Made by a program: the position numbers and the translations under genes. The notes under the pieces were generated by a model. It was not told the DNA's origin. It made no database searches and worked only from the letters and a program-made list of their open reading frames with translations. From contig NZ_CP061205.1 in assembly GCF_015240255.1 (NCBI RefSeq), positions 3,024,501 to 3,088,500 of the forward strand: a stretch of 64,000 bases of DNA, in the 5' to 3' direction. The stretch comes from Kordiimonas pumila (lineage in GTDB: Bacteria; Pseudomonadota; Alphaproteobacteria; Sphingomonadales; Kordiimonadaceae). Numbering within the stretch: the first letter of the stretch is position 1; every line of letters begins with the position of its first letter. Of this stretch, positions 46,571 to 53,385 are shown piece by piece.

Positions 46571-48229
46571 TTACATATTCGGATAGTTTGGTCCACCCCC
46601 ACCTTCAGGCACAACCCAGTTAATATTCTGCATGTAATCTTTAATGTCGCAGGTTTTACAGTGCACACAGTTTTGCGCATTGATCTGCAGGCGTTTCTCG
46701 TCTGGATTATCCCCAACAAACTCGTAAACACCGGCCGGGCAAAAACGCTGCTCAGGCCCGGCATAGTCTTTAAGGTTTACTGTCACAGGAATCATTTCAT
46801 CGGCAAGTTTCAGGTGAACCGGCTGGTCTTCCTCGTGGTTGGTGTTAGACAGAAAAACAGATGACAGTTTGTCGAATGTAAGTTTTCCGTCCGGTTTTGG
46901 GTAATCAATCGGTTTCGCTGTTTTAGCTTTTGCCAGCGCTTTATGATCCTTGTGAACATGCTTGAATGTCCACGGGAACAAAAAGCCAAGGCCAATATTA
47001 TTAAGCCACATATCGAGGCCCGAATACACAGTACCCAGCGTAATACCAAACTTTGACAAAGATGGCCGTGCATTCCGAACACGGTGCAGGTCTTTGTATA
47101 TCCAGCTATTTTTAAATGCTGTTTCGTAGCCCGTGAGCTCCACTTCACCCACAGAGCCTGCGGCAACTGCATCAAAAGCAGCTTCCGCCGCCAACATGCC
47201 AGATTTCATGGCATTATGGCTGCCTTTAATACGCGGCACATTTACAAACCCTGCCGCGCACCCAATAAGAGCACCGCCGGGGAACGAAAGCTTAGGTACA
47301 GATTGCAAGCCGCCTTCATTAATGGCGCGCGCACCGTATGATACGCGCCTGCCACCTTCGAGAATCTCTTTAACCGCAGGGTGCATTTTAAAGCGCTGCA
47401 TTTCATCAAACGGTGAAAGGTATGGATTTTCATAATCAAGGCCGACAACAAAACCGATCGCAACCTGATTATTTTCCTGATGGTAGATAAAGCCGCCGCC
47501 CACAGTGTCTGTCAGGGGCCAGCCCTGTGTATGGATAACCCGGCCCGGCACATGTTTTGCCGGATCAATATCCCACAGTTCCTTGATACCAATACCATAT
47601 GTCTGGTGGTCTGTGTCTGCGCGCAGGTTAAATTCTTTTTCAAGCTGCTTGGAGAGAGAGCCACGGCAGCCTTCCGCAAACAACGTATATTTAGCATGCA
47701 GTTCCATGCCAGGCATATGGCTTGCCTTAGGTTCGCCGTCACGGCCAATACCCATGTCACCTGTTGCAACACCTTTTACGCGGCCATCCTCATGGAACAA
47801 AACCTCAGCGCCTGCAAAACCCGGGTAAACTTCTACACCAAGCGCTTCTGCCTGTTCCCCAAGCCAACGACACAGGTTCCCAAGCGAAAGTGTATACATG
47901 CCTTTGTTCGACATAAGCGGCGGCAGTAAAAAATGCGGAAAATCAATTTTGCCTTTTTCAGACAGTATCCAGTGATGGTTATCTGTAACAGGCGTATTGA
48001 GAGGTGCACCTTTTTCTTTCCAGTCAGGTAGCAGTTCGTTCAGGGCGATCGGGTCAACAACGGCACCAGAGAGAATATGCGCCCCAACTTCAGAGCCTTT
48101 CTCAATAACGCAAACTGTTAATTCCTGATCTTTTTCCTGAGCCAGTTGCATTAAGCGAATTGCTGCTGATAACCCCGCCGGGCCACCACCAACAATCACT
48201 ACATCAAATTCCATGGATTCACGTTCCAT
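46571..48229 (-). CDS. Electron transfer flavoprotein-ubiquinone oxidoreductase
   Basis: A 552-residue membrane-bound flavoprotein. The FAD motif [16 protein letters not shown] is at residues about 10-25, with [15 protein letters not shown] and the C-terminal 4Fe-4S region (CPAGVYEF then [33 protein letters not shown]). It passes electrons from ETF (fatty-acid and amino-acid oxidation) to quinone. Start at ATG 48227-48229, AAGGAG upstream. The partner ETF genes are not in the window. Confidence 0.96.
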
Positions 48230-48513
48230 CTGCCACTCCTTCACTCGTCCTGAAGCCCATATCGCCATGGGGCTTATGCACCAAATTCGTCCTTAGGCCT
48301 AAACGTAACTTTGGTCGACTATCATTTTTTTCAAGTCTTATGCCTGCCCTTAAAGAAAAGGTCAAATAGTTGAAAAAAACAAAGGCTTTTATGGTTACCT
48401 AAAGTAGGAGTTACTATAAATTATCAAAACAGTCTCTGATACTCTTAAAATTTTCACTGCAAAATAATATCTTCCCGCCTATATTGGGGCGAAACTGAAA
48501 GCAGGTAATTTTC

Positions 48514-49371
48514 ATGAACCAAGGCATGGCAGAAAATCACGACCCCAAAGCTCTTCTTGAATGGTATATTGCCATGGGGGTTGATGAAGTTATTGCCGAT
48601 ACTCCAGTGGACAGGTTCACGGAACCTAAGAATCAAAACACACCTTCTGCCATAACACAGCCTGCCTCAGCCTCACATGCTGCAAGGCCGGTTACCCGCA
48701 CGCCCTTGCCTGATGCCGCCCAAATACCAACACCTATTGCAGCAAGGCCAACACAGCCTACAAGCGGGGCCGGGGCAGAAGCTGCCTTGAAAGTTGCTAC
48801 AGCATGCACGTCTATCGCTGAGCTTAAAGAAGCACTTGAAGCTTTTGATGGTGGGCTTTTGAAACGCTCGGCCAAAAACACTGTCTTTGCAGACGGCGCG
48901 CCAGACAGCCCCTTAATGGTGATAGGTGACACGCCCGGCAGTGAAGAAGATATATCCGGCACCCCTTTTGTGGGGCCTGCGGGTATCCTCCTTGATAAAA
49001 TGCTGGCTGCTATTGATATGGGGCGCGGGCGCGGTGCCTATCTCACAAACCTTTGCCCGTGGCGACCGCTTGGGAATGCTGTGCCTGACGCAAAAACCAT
49101 TGAGATGCTATTACCCTTTACGAAGCGCCACATTGAACTGGCTGCCCCAAAGGTAATTATGCTGCTTGGTGGGTTGCCGATGAAAGCCCTGTTCGATACA
49201 TCTGACGGTATTTCAAGGCAGCGCGGCAAATGGAAAGAACTGACAATTGCTGACCATAATTTTGCTGCAATAGCTACATATCATCCTGACTTCCTGCTAA
49301 GCCAGCCTTTGCAAAAGGCTGCTGCATGGCACGACCTGCTATTAATTAAGGAAAAATTGACCCAGTTATGA
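48514..49371 (+). CDS. Uracil-DNA glycosylase family 4/5-like protein without cluster cysteines
   Basis: A 285-residue protein. The C-terminal 160 residues fit the UDG superfamily: VIGDTPGSEEDISGTPFVGPAG (motif 1, usually GEAPG), TNLCPWRPLGN, LLGGLP and ATYHPDFLLSQPLQK (motif 3). The N-terminal 100 residues are Pro/Ala/Thr-rich linker after a short conserved start. The protein has only two cysteines, so the usual 4Fe-4S cluster cannot be bound by four of them; the positions expected for CxxC and CxPF cysteines hold Gly and Leu. Its stop overlaps the SLT gene start by 4 bp. Uracil excision is inferred. Confidence 0.82.
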   Translation: MNQGMAENHDPKALLEWYIAMGVDEVIADTPVDRFTEPKNQNTPSAITQPASASHAARPVTRTPLPDAAQIPTPIAARPTQPTSGAGAEAALKVATACTSIAELKEALEAFDGGLLKRSAKNTVFADGAPDSPLMVIGDTPGSEEDISGTPFVGPAGILLDKMLAAIDMGRGRGAYLTNLCPWRPLGNAVPDAKTIEMLLPFTKRHIELAAPKVIMLLGGLPMKALFDTSDGISRQRGKWKELTIADHNFAAIATYHPDFLLSQPLQKAAAWHDLLLIKEKLTQL

Positions 49372-51152
49372 GTATGATAAGCATCTCCGCGATCTTTAGA
49401 AATAACTGGTTCAGTGCTTTTGCGCTTTGCACATGCCTTTTTGCTGTCTCTGAACAGGCTTATAGCGCCCCCCAGACTAGTTCTGTTATTCCAGAGATAC
49501 TGACGGCCGCCGATATTGAACGCTATCAGGAAATATTCGCTCTTCAGGAACAGGCCCAGTGGCAAACAGCCGACAAGCTGATTAAAAAACTGAAAAACCC
49601 GATTCTACTAGGGCATGTGGAATTTCAGCGCTACATGCACCCAACAGGCTACCGCAGTAAATTTAATGAACTATCTAAATGGCTCAGCCAGTATGCAGAC
49701 CACCCAGACGCATGGCGGCTGTACCGGCTGGCGCGCAAAAGGCAAGGCAAAGCAGCAACGCCCCAGCGCCCCATTGACACACGCTACCCCGGCGTAACCG
49801 GGCAAGCAGGCACACCCAAACCGCCGCTGCCGCCACGCAATATTCATGAACGCCGTTCTATCACCACTTTTGCAGCCAACGTACGTAAATATGTCCGTAA
49901 AGGCGAACCCGAATGGGCAGAAAAACGCTACTGGGCCATGGAGCGCCGGGATCTGTTGGTGCCACACGAAAAAGCCAACGCGCTGGAGCGTATCGCCGCT
50001 AGCTATTACTATAAAGGTAATGACGAGAAAGCGATTATTCTAGCAAGCCTTGCGGCTGACCTTGCTCGCGAAAGTGAGCCCGAAAGCGACTGGATTGCAG
50101 GCCTTGCACTGTGGCGAACTGGTGACATTGAAGGGGCCTATAAACATTTCAAACTCTTGAGCGATGCCGAACAAGCAAGTGACTGGCTCTTGGCTGCTGG
50201 TAATTTCTGGGCCAGTCGGTCTGCCCTCAGGTTTGGCGACTATGACGATTCTATAAGCTACCTAAAACGTGCCAGCACCTACCATGAAACCTTTTACGGG
50301 CTGCTGGCTGGCCGCCAACTTGGTATTATTCCCGATATTGACTGGTCAGTACCTGAGCTAACAAAAGCCTATATGCAAACGCTGCTGGCTTACCCTGCCA
50401 CCAAACGGGCGCTAGCCCTTGCTGAAATAGGCCGAAATGACATGGCCGATGAAGAACTACGGCTGTTATGGGGCCGTGAAGGCACGGATGTGCAATCAGA
50501 GCTTCTGGCTCTGTCTGCCGCCCTTAATCTTCCAGCACTGCAAACCCGGCTTGGCCGCGCTGGTGGCACGGGTGAAACCCCCACTACAGCGACCCGCTAC
50601 CCCTTGCCTGACTGGGAACCTGCTGGCGGCTTTAATCTTGATAAAGCCCTGATATTTGCCATGGTTAAAAAAGAAAGTGATTTCCGCATACAAGCCAAAA
50701 GCCGGGTTGGGGCTGGTGGCCTTATGCAGGTAATGCCCTCAACAGCCCATTTTATAACCAAAAAAGGCTCGCTGTTGCGGCGTAACAGTAAACGCCTGTA
50801 CGAGCCTGAATTCAACATGGCACTAGGGCAGCGCTATATTGAATACCTTATGGAAATGGACTATGTAGAAGGCAACCTGTTTATGACCCTTGCGGCCTAT
50901 AATGGTGGCCCCGGTAGCCTGATGTCCTGGCGCAGAGAAGTAGATTACGGTGCAGACCCCTTACTCTTCATTGAATCGATCGGTTTCTATGAAACCCGTA
51001 ATTATATTGAACGTGTTATGGCAAACCTCTGGCTCTACCGCATGCGAATGGGGCAAGACACACCAAGCCTTGATGCCATAGCAGCAGGTGCATGGCCTAT
51101 TTTAGAGCGCCTTGACACAGAAGTGCCAGAAAGCCCCGACGAAGCACGCTAA
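49368..51152 (+). CDS. Lytic murein transglycosylase (SLT family)
   Basis: A 594-residue periplasmic enzyme. A signal peptide (NWFSAFALCTCLFAVSEQAYSA) precedes a superhelical domain of about 370 residues, as in Slt70, then an SLT domain with FAMVKKESDF (catalytic Glu), GAGGLMQVMPST and LAAYNGGPG near residues 420-540. It cleaves peptidoglycan without hydrolysis. It overlaps the upstream UDG-like gene by 4 bp. An insert rich in Pro at about residues 135-160 separates repeats. Confidence 0.92.
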   Translation: MSMISISAIFRNNWFSAFALCTCLFAVSEQAYSAPQTSSVIPEILTAADIERYQEIFALQEQAQWQTADKLIKKLKNPILLGHVEFQRYMHPTGYRSKFNELSKWLSQYADHPDAWRLYRLARKRQGKAATPQRPIDTRYPGVTGQAGTPKPPLPPRNIHERRSITTFAANVRKYVRKGEPEWAEKRYWAMERRDLLVPHEKANALERIAASYYYKGNDEKAIILASLAADLARESEPESDWIAGLALWRTGDIEGAYKHFKLLSDAEQASDWLLAAGNFWASRSALRFGDYDDSISYLKRASTYHETFYGLLAGRQLGIIPDIDWSVPELTKAYMQTLLAYPATKRALALAEIGRNDMADEELRLLWGREGTDVQSELLALSAALNLPALQTRLGRAGGTGETPTTATRYPLPDWEPAGGFNLDKALIFAMVKKESDFRIQAKSRVGAGGLMQVMPSTAHFITKKGSLLRRNSKRLYEPEFNMALGQRYIEYLMEMDYVEGNLFMTLAAYNGGPGSLMSWRREVDYGADPLLFIESIGFYETRNYIERVMANLWLYRMRMGQDTPSLDAIAAGAWPILERLDTEVPESPDEAR

Positions 51153-51182: not shown

Positions 51183-51713
51183 GTGGCTAAAATTGATGAA
51201 ACCCGCACCTTTATTGCCGTAAACATTGCTATTATGACGGTGTCTGACACCAGGACAGAGGCTGACGACACATCAGGCGACACCTTAGCAGACCGCGTTC
51301 ATAAAGCAGGTCATACTATAGCTGCCAGAGCGATTGTAAAAGATGACAAGCCCTCTATCACCGCACAGCTACAAGCATGGATGGCCGATAAAAACATTGA
51401 TGTTGTCATTTCAACAGGTGGCACCGGCATCACCGGCCGCGATGTAACACCAGAATGCTTTGAAGCACTTTATACAAAAGCCATACCGGGTTTTGGCGAA
51501 CTCTTCAGAATGCTTTCGTATGATACGATCGGCACCAGTACAATTCAGAGCCGTGCAACAGGCGGCATTGCCGGTACTACACTGTTGTTTGCCCTGCCCG
51601 GCTCCACCGGTGCCGTAAAAGACGGCTGGGACAAAATCCTTTCCACCCAACTCGACAACCGCTACCGCCCTTGTAATTTTGTTGAACTAATGTCCCGCTT
51701 CGGTGAAGTGTAA
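51183..51713 (+). CDS. moaB: Molybdenum cofactor biosynthesis protein MoaB
   Basis: A 176-residue MoCF-binding protein, starting at GTG 51183. The signature DVVISTGGTGITGRDVTPE and the trailing ALPGSTGAVKDGWDKIL match MoaB/MogA; the length and N-terminal AVNIAIMTVSDTRTEADDTSG favour MoaB. It binds molybdopterin; adenylylation is established for MogA-type relatives. No other molybdopterin gene is nearby. Follows the SLT gene by 30 bp. Confidence 0.94.
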   Translation: MAKIDETRTFIAVNIAIMTVSDTRTEADDTSGDTLADRVHKAGHTIAARAIVKDDKPSITAQLQAWMADKNIDVVISTGGTGITGRDVTPECFEALYTKAIPGFGELFRMLSYDTIGTSTIQSRATGGIAGTTLLFALPGSTGAVKDGWDKILSTQLDNRYRPCNFVELMSRFGEV

Positions 51714-51879: not shown

Positions 51880-53385
51880 GTGTCTTCATTTAAACGATTA
51901 GTAGCAAGCTTGGGAATTTGGGCACTATTTGCTATGCCTGCTCTGGCCGATGAAGGGCTGGAAAGCCGGGGTGGATTTGTTGATTTTATCGTTGCTGTGA
52001 TTAATGGATTTGGCAACTTTGTATTTAGCAAGATCAACCTGTTCGGCGTCCATATAGAATGGATTGTTGCCTTCCTTGCCCTCCCTATGATCCTGCTGAC
52101 CGTCTATTTCAAGTTCATTAACCTCACTAGCTTCAAGCGCGCTTTAAACATTGTTAGAGGCCGCTATAATGATGATACAGCCCCCGGTGAAGTAACGCAG
52201 TTTCAAGCCCTTTCCACAGCTCTGTCTGGCACCGTTGGCCTTGGTAACATTGCAGGTGTTGCCGTTGCCATTAGCATTGGCGGGCCGGGTGCCACTTTCT
52301 GGATGATCCTGATTGGCTTTTGCGCCATGTCGCTTAAATTTGCCGAGTGTACACTCGGTGTAAAATACCGGATTATTCATCCAGATGGCACTGTATCTGG
52401 TGGCCCTATGTACTATCTGGAGCAGGGCCTGAAAAATAAAGGCATGGGGAAACTCGGCAAAATACTTGCCTGGTCCTATGCTATTATTGCCATCCCAACC
52501 ATGGCGCAGATAGCGCAGGTAAACCAGTCCTATGAAGCCGTTGCTGCCGTTACAGGTTTTGATAGCGACTTTTCAAAATGGTCCTTCGGCCTTGTTGTTA
52601 CCTTCCTGACTGTCATTGTTATTTTTGGTGGCCTTAAGTCTATTGCAAAAGTAACCGCCCGCCTTGTTCCTGCGATGGCAGCCATCTATATCGGTGCGGC
52701 TCTGGTTATCATTCTTGGCCACTTTAGCCATATTCCAGATGCTTTCATCACTATTTTCTCAAATGCCTTTACCTCAGACGCAGGCATGGGCGGTGTCGTT
52801 GGCTCGCTCGTGATCGCCATGCAGCGCGCGGTATATTCTACAGAAGCGGGGATTGGCTCTGCCACTATCGCGCACTCAGCCGCCAAAACACATGAGCCCG
52901 TTTCAGAAGGTATGGTTGCCCTTATGGAACCTTTCATCGATACAGTGATTGTCTGTACCATGACCGCACTGGTTATTGTTATTACTGGCACCTATACGGC
53001 AAGTGAAGGCGCGACCGGCATATCAATGACCGCCGCTGCTTTTGGTTCTGTTATTAGCTGGTTCCCATGGGTTCTTGCCCTTGCTGCGTTCCTGTTTGCC
53101 TATTCAACCATTATTAGCTGGTCCTATTATTCCAGCCGGTCATGGGAATTTCTTTTTGGCGGTTCAAAACGGTCTATGACAATCTTTAAGGTTGTGTTCT
53201 GCTTGTTCCTTATACCCGGCCCCCTCCTCACTGTAGGGGAAGTGTATCTGGTAATGGATAGCCTGTTCTTCATGCTTGCAGTTCCCAACATCATCGGAAT
53301 TTATATTATGGCTCCAGAGATTAAACGCGATTTGAAAAGCTATCTTTCCCGTTTGAAATCTGGTGAAATAAAAATGGTGAAATAA
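51880..53385 (+). CDS. Alanine/glycine:cation symporter (AGCS family)
   Basis: A 501-residue inner-membrane transporter starting at GTG 51880 (GGGAG upstream). It begins with a periplasmic-entry segment and has about ten hydrophobic segments. Family signature ALSGTVGLGNIAGVAVAISIGGPGATFWM is at residues about 108-136, and a second conserved run is GGPMYYLEQGL. It imports alanine or glycine with sodium or protons. It is followed by the SnoaL-like gene by 18 bp, possibly in one transcript. Confidence 0.93.
   Translation: MSSFKRLVASLGIWALFAMPALADEGLESRGGFVDFIVAVINGFGNFVFSKINLFGVHIEWIVAFLALPMILLTVYFKFINLTSFKRALNIVRGRYNDDTAPGEVTQFQALSTALSGTVGLGNIAGVAVAISIGGPGATFWMILIGFCAMSLKFAECTLGVKYRIIHPDGTVSGGPMYYLEQGLKNKGMGKLGKILAWSYAIIAIPTMAQIAQVNQSYEAVAAVTGFDSDFSKWSFGLVVTFLTVIVIFGGLKSIAKVTARLVPAMAAIYIGAALVIILGHFSHIPDAFITIFSNAFTSDAGMGGVVGSLVIAMQRAVYSTEAGIGSATIAHSAAKTHEPVSEGMVALMEPFIDTVIVCTMTALVIVITGTYTASEGATGISMTAAAFGSVISWFPWVLALAAFLFAYSTIISWSYYSSRSWEFLFGGSKRSMTIFKVVFCLFLIPGPLLTVGEVYLVMDSLFFMLAVPNIIGIYIMAPEIKRDLKSYLSRLKSGEIKMVK

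Follow-up and report, generated by a model that had tools for sequence, protein, structure and literature searches.

Background

Chi (HolC) has been described in alpha-, beta- and gammaproteobacteria and psi (HolD) in gammaproteobacteria only, with the psi site of chi appearing conserved elsewhere; the same two sources state the question of the missing psi as open (PMC3197488, PMC3290774). W57 and F64 of chi are reported to be essential for HolD binding, and E. coli YoaA uses the same site (PMC11981726). The presence of a conserved site is therefore by itself no proof of psi. P. aeruginosa psi is described as twice the length of its E. coli counterpart, with a disordered N-terminal part (PMC3197488), a description that likens it to the protein studied here.

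The other relevant systems are uracil-DNA glycosylases (UDGs). For families 4 and 5 the Fe-S cluster is described as non-essential for catalysis, and changes to the family-4 cysteines as costing part of the activity only (PMC5295032). UdgX has Fe-S cysteines and a motif of its own, GEQPG. BdiUng (5gn2), an alphaproteobacterial UDG outside family 1, is placed in a separate family (PMC8307549). Among the open-licence PMC papers listed in our search, none links psi with UDG, and no title reports essentiality or a replisome pull-down; the UDG superfamily of a curated resource may already include psi.

The window analyzed here is a stretch of 64,000 nucleotides of the Kordiimonas pumila genome (contig NZ_CP061205.1, positions 3,024,501 to 3,088,500). 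At 48514-49371 it carries an open reading frame that an initial annotation described as a UDG without Fe-S cysteines. We lean slightly towards regarding its product, the window protein, as a UDG tethered to the clamp loader and orthologous to psi, perhaps the missing psi of Alphaproteobacteria.

Results and discussion

The locus and its neighbors

The gene and its surroundings are laid out as follows, with residue numbers referring to the window protein.

46571..48268, minus strand: gene resembling an ETF-quinone oxidoreductase (ETF-QO, presumably; NCBIfam gave FixC-like models only, under cut-off), divergent neighbor
48514..49371, plus strand: CDS of 285 aa for a family-4-type UDG without a cluster, possibly a psi-like subunit of the clamp loader
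48547..48627, plus strand: N-terminal peptide, residues 12-38, KALLEWYIAMGVDEVIADTPVDRFTEP (alpha profile and profile chain)
48628..48804, plus strand: Pro/Ala-rich linker and connecting helix, residues 39-97 (from pLDDT)
48805..49368, plus strand: UDG domain, residues 98-285 (structure match)
48844..48855, plus strand: F111-D-G-G114, the former N-terminal CxxC, ligands 1 and 2 (alignment)
48925..48939, plus strand: motif A, G138-D-T-P-G142 (GE[AG]PG in canonical rows)
49048..49062, plus strand: N179 (N80 of TthUDGa), P182 (K83) and W183 (ligand Cys84) (alignment)
49108..49110, plus strand: L199, site of the fourth ligand, Cys100 (alignment)
49282..49284, plus strand: H257, the motif B histidine (H155), kept (alignment)
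49368..51152, plus strand: lytic transglycosylase-like gene (NCBIfam transglycosylase models, all under cut-off)
51183..51713, plus strand: moaB (TIGR02667, 247.4 bits, cut-off 222.4)
51880-53385, plus strand: multi-pass transporter-like ORF, which we take to resemble a sodium:alanine symporter

The 4-bp overlap noted earlier between the UDG and transglycosylase genes is real, as ATGA at 49368-49371 is common to the stop of one and the start of the other. Among testable loci, the same overlap recurs in 25 of 45 within the order and in 29 of 86 cluster-free ones overall. The overlap carries little information on function; the neighborhood of ETF-QO-like, UDG and transglycosylase genes is simply old. 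A chance or mis-annotated reading frame is ruled out by the Pfam, TIGR00758 and PDB matches and the confident fold described below.

A family-4 fold without cluster ligands

At E values up to 1, the only Pfam family matched by the window protein was PF03167 (UDG, 6.4e-24). The family-4 model TIGR00758 was exceeded (141.7 bits, cut-off 125.3), the protein fell under the cut-offs of the UdgX and archaeal UDG models of NCBIfam, and its closest PDB relative by sequence was T. thermophilus UDGa (3.1e-22). An AlphaFold prediction (window protein and 24 relatives) had a mean pLDDT of 83.6, with values mostly above 90 in the UDG domain, 83 in the block 111-120 where the CxxC was lost, and blocks of 49-61 across residues 31-80, of which about 39-80 are of low confidence. 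The modeled body matched S. tokodaii UDG4 (4zbx) with Z 27.9 over 187 residues and TthUDGa (1ui1) with Z 27.4 and an rmsd of 1.2 over 181. Its likeness to family 4 (1ui0/1ui1, 4zbx) thus lies in the fold (Z 27-28), the TIGR00758 match and the kept residues F152, N179 and H257, equivalent to F54, N80 and H155 of TthUDGa.

It differs from family 4 in its ligands and pocket. The four ligand columns read F111, G114, W183 and L199, and the only cysteines, C98 and C181, lie in none of them. The description as a UDG without Fe-S cysteines therefore stands, with all four columns non-Cys and the family-4 model over cut-off, and so do the two cysteines and the GDTPG motif at residues 138-142 that went with it. 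Glycine and leucine had been read at the CxxC and CxPF positions; this is right for G114 and L199, but Phe takes the first CxxC position and Trp that of the third ligand. Cluster ligands elsewhere in the structure are ruled out, C98 and C181 being the sole cysteines, and AlphaFold predicts an ordinary family-4 fold. In the pocket, motif A has Asp for Glu, giving GDTPG where family 4 has GE[AG]PG, A42 is replaced by Thr and K83 by P182. The N-terminal peptide and linker are absent from the solved family-4 chains of Thermus, Thermotoga and Sulfolobus.

UdgX has the same fold and is the nearest outgroup, but membership is ruled out by GDTPG instead of GEQPG and by a TIGR03914 score of 101.1 bits against a cut-off of 189.95. 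The likeness to BdiUng is one of UDG fold, at Z 14.5 only.

An old cluster-free branch in Alphaproteobacteria

Of 289 genomes of the class, 285 had a TIGR00758 match, over the cut-off in 263; some of the matches may be UdgX. Loci were taken as best matches, mostly one or two per family, a non-random sample in which identical proteins were counted once; L001 (= L005) and L002 and L004 (no match to our home-made profile) were dropped before counting. The resulting alignment held 216 UDG rows, namely 166 with Trp at the third ligand position, which defines the group and which we call W-rows, and 50 others. All 166 W-rows are alphaproteobacterial. Their Cys1 column never holds Cys (F in 141, Y in 18, others in 7), Cys2 is present in 126 and Cys4 in 127, and 10 have no ligand cysteine at all. 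Among the 50 others, 37 non-alpha, non-UdgX rows carry both CxxC cysteines (all four cysteines in 36), and the remainder are 8 UdgX rows, the family-5-like gene of the window genome and 4 of another group (L135-L137 and L139, the last misaligned in the ligand columns). Apart from that family-5-like protein, no alpha row in the alignment had Cys at position 3.

In a tree of 149 rows, built by a quick method with no bootstrap and leaving out L056, L058, L060, L061, L141 and every second alpha row from outside the order, the W-rows fell on one side of a branch with SH-aLRT 97; the CCxC rows received 94 and UdgX 100. The suggestion of a cluster-free branch is thereby borne out as a single clade, class-wide rather than local. 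Close relatives with four cysteines were looked for among the 19 aligned genus members, the window protein included, and there were none. The ligand columns read F-G-W-C, with Cys4 only, in 18 of these 19 rows and F-G-W-L in the window row, and GEAPG is found in 14. Given the class-wide clade and these genus rows, the loss of the cluster is old, and GDTPG and the loss of the last cysteine are recent. As read from the aligned sequences, we show here that a class-wide branch lost Cys1 and Cys3, whose columns now hold Phe or Tyr and Trp, respectively, with a piecemeal loss of Cys2 or Cys4 following. Such a loss is tolerable, since changing the cysteines is described as lowering family-4 activity only in part (PMC5295032).

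An N-terminal peptide linked stepwise to psi

Neither the N-terminal peptide nor a connection to psi was part of the initial annotation. The starts of the W-rows resemble LLxWxxxMGVDEAIxDxPVDRF followed by a disordered, Pro/Ala-rich linker, and in the AlphaFold model residues 11-20 form a helix (mean pLDDT about 74). The solved family-4 chains of Thermus, Thermotoga and Sulfolobus, at 192-205 aa, leave no room for such a peptide. An alpha peptide profile (27 columns) recovered 157 of 166 W-rows at p<0.01, a mostly circular result, as 107 of the rows built the profile; L099 and L112 also scored at p<0.01, but off the motif.

Related starts are present in non-alpha UDG rows as well, and a chain of profile comparisons over 46 columns leads through them to psi: alpha to f16x (30.1, E 1.1e-7), f16x to f159 (18.4, E 4e-4), f159 to beta (23.9, E 1.5e-5) and beta to psi (43.3, E 9.1e-11). 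Every step scored above its best of 54 control windows (11.6-16.0 per set). The alpha set was 104 of the 166 rows, chosen by pattern; selection by hand or pattern, with the glycine as anchor, gave the f16x, f159 and beta sets. Compared directly, alpha peptide and psi scored 13.3, under the best control of 16.0 though in the same register, and none of the psi N-termini exceeded chance with the alpha profile (best p 0.32). Direct homology of the psi and alpha peptides, by PSSM or profile, was thus not significant, and the link between them rests on the chain. Of the 37 canonical UDG4s, a psi PSSM recognized 3 at p<0.01; it also gave 15.0 for one UdgX row, above the control maximum of 13.1.

Psi and UDG genes at the TsaB-RimI locus

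The psi model PF03603 matched in 14 of 150 genomes of the phylum; there was no match in the window protein at E up to 1, nor in its genome at 0.01. We class the protein neither as psi, for want of a match to the psi model, nor as a canonical family-4 UDG, since it has no ligands. When 12 psi rows were compared by hhalign with nine beta/gamma-type UDG4 rows, which were chosen and of which 8 are RimI-linked, residues 1-21 matched with a probability of 89.4 and E 2.1e-6. The 27-residue psi chain 3gli_O, described in complex with the clamp loader (PMC13213242), covers the same region. The Pfam psi model itself reached residues 4-25 of the canonical UDG4 L203 at E 0.016, under its cut-off. With 27 unselected UDG4 rows the match lay on the body and had a probability of 26.6 (P 6.9e-4); with the alpha set, P was 0.048. 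PDB searches retrieved no UDG with the psi profile, no psi with a profile of the inactive intermediates described below, and neither with L232 alone. The psi structures 1em8 and 3sxu were absent among the 50 Foldseek and VIA-align matches listed, which is uninformative either way.

RimI was encoded at 12 of the 14 psi loci, at 9 of the 37 canonical UDG4 loci, at all 4 loci of inactive intermediates and at none of the 8 UdgX loci. These are lower bounds, since the loci are best matches with flanks differing from 1.5 to 5 kb. Near alpha W-row genes there was no RimI (0/166) within the flanks covered. The clearest layouts come from family f185, which we take to be Burkholderiaceae/Polynucleobacter. 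Genome G511 has TsaB-RimI-UDG4, the last with four cysteines, and LplT about 1.1 kb further on; G454 has TsaB-RimI-psi-LplT and no TIGR00758 match, its psi exceeding the PF03603 cut-off (8.6e-6). The names TsaB, RimI and LplT rest on matches over NCBIfam cut-offs. G479, of the same genus as G454, shows the same layout, with LplT assigned by eye. The four intermediates (L239-L242) keep TsaB-RimI and the peptide and match TIGR00758 at 3e-12 to 4e-10, and they are without motif A and most of the catalytic letters. They matched UDG4 at E 3.9e-34 and the psi body weakly (P 4.2e-4). We consider it likely that UDG4, inactive UDG4 and psi are one orthologous family in Pseudomonadota.

The window protein would accordingly resemble psi (1em8, 3sxu, 3gli) in its N-terminal peptide and, by putative descent, in its UDG-like body. 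It differs from psi in having no PF03603 match, in keeping most of the UDG active site and in lying away from rimI.

Chi in the window genome and the phylum

Chi (PF04364) was found in 192 of 199 genomes of the phylum. The window genome has a HolC (1.8e-30, NF004347 over cut-off) that keeps both W57 and F64, which gives the window protein a psi-like context. Two genomes speak against a psi role: G114 has a related protein (L257) and no chi, and G437 a UDG4 with the peptide and no chi. Two complete genomes of f184, G450 and G457, have neither chi nor a TIGR00758 match.

Active-site drift and other UDG genes

The catalytic E/F/N/H set is kept in 144 of 166 W-rows and altered in 22, the window row by Glu to Asp only; among canonical rows it is intact in 34 of 37. 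Its retention in the 144 W-rows indicates that catalysis is still selected in most lineages. Motif A is also lost in f5, a family of the window's order that we take to be Sphingomonadaceae. All 10 f5 genomes searched have the orthologue, placed between the ETF-QO-like and transglycosylase genes, and all 10 have chi. GExPG is absent in 10/10 and the motif B histidine in about half. None of these orthologues was among the rows building the peptide profile, and 8 of the 10 scored above the best of 6000 controls (23.8-35.4 against 17.96); the other two are L271 at 16.1 and L270, whose start position is not fixed, at 1.4. L258 and L260, from two further families, are similar (peptide scores 16.8 and 20.8) and adjoin a transglycosylase gene.

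The window genome carries three more UDG-superfamily genes, with the family labels of L003 and L004 presumed from motifs and that of L004 also from TIGR00628.

G000:C1:3275658-3276122: L002, GQAPG protein with cysteines (no NCBIfam match at 1e-5)
G000:C1:2773206-2773712: L003, family-5-like UDG
G000:C1:3773401-3773877: L004, family-1 Ung (TIGR00628, 1.1e-81)

Ung was searched for in 80 genomes out of the 139 with a W-row; one of them, G189, has no W-row, so that 79 were counted. Family-1 Ung is patchy, occurring in 19 of the 80. It was present in 9 of 18 W-genomes with an altered active site and in 10 of 61 with an intact one (Fisher p 0.009), an association that was not supported in an independent-pairs test. 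We therefore draw no conclusion on Ung, and its presence as a cause of active-site decay is left open.

Interpretation

For the alpha members, the window protein included, the sequences leave it evenly balanced whether they dock on DnaX and serve as psi. The peptide would sit in the DnaX (tau/gamma) collar as the psi peptide does, and the UDG-fold body would bind chi, linking the clamp loader to SSB; where the active site survives, uracil could be removed at the fork as well. The window genome also encodes a family-1 Ung and two more UDG-like proteins with cysteines. Given the drift of its active site (Glu to Asp in motif A, loss of K83), we would expect the window protein to have weak or absent glycosylase activity, with the replisome link as the function that was kept. 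More tentatively, at a little under an even balance, family-4-type UDGs may be the missing psi of alpha- and many other proteobacterial replisomes, with a uracil glycosylase in the clamp loader, cluster-free in Alphaproteobacteria, and E. coli psi as a worn-down UDG that retains the docking peptide; its catalytic activity would have been lost, as repeatedly in several alpha and beta lineages. If a UDG-annotated protein is psi, the missing-psi gap closes and psi gains an origin. Many bacteria would then couple uracil surveillance to their clamp loader, and the class-wide cluster-free branch and its repeated active-site loss would be explained.

The main competitor, which we consider clearly less probable yet a serious one, is an ordinary repair UDG that happens to be cluster-free, its peptide being a docking tag for another partner or a targeting tail and the likeness to psi being limited to beta/gamma relatives. 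Retention of E/F/N/H in 144 of 166 W-rows, the family-4 fold and model score, the non-significant direct comparison of alpha and psi peptides and the described dispensability of the Fe-S cluster for family 4/5 catalysis (PMC5295032) all fit such an enzyme. A pure repair function does not explain why the peptide mostly stays where motif A has gone, as in 10/10 f5 orthologues and several other lineages, and each step of the peptide chain to psi is significant.

A shift of specificity towards hypoxanthine, xanthine or other bases, through GDTPG and the change of K83-C84 to P-W, appears improbable. The pocket does differ at three positions (E to D, A42 to T, K83 to P), and BdiUng, a different cluster-free UDG, is described as having broad specificity (PMC8307549); however, it matches far less well in structure (Z 14.5, against 27.9 for 4zbx), the equivalents of F54, N80 and H155 are kept, and plain GEAPG is present in 14 of 19 genus rows. 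We give still less credence to a decaying relic that was freed by the acquisition of family-1 Ung and has no present function: the raw Ung association that would suggest it fails the independent-pairs test, and the ORF is intact, the fold confident, and the peptide and locus kept across the order. The reading as a clamp-loader-tethered UDG orthologous to psi is the one that we prefer to all three.

Divergent relatives

Three transglycosylase-linked orthologues without motif A come from small genomes of the class (L275 and L276 in G082 and G271, L279 in G104). The peptide is not recognizable in them, with scores of -1.4, -0.7 and 6.1 for L275, L276 and L279. A further divergent cluster-free group comprises L058, L060, L061 and L257, which have a TDxP-type motif A and no asparagine at the N80 position; the N-termini of the group read GVKWEL, GVQWEL or GIQWEL. 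L058, L060 and L061 come from rumen and gut metagenome Alphaproteobacteria.
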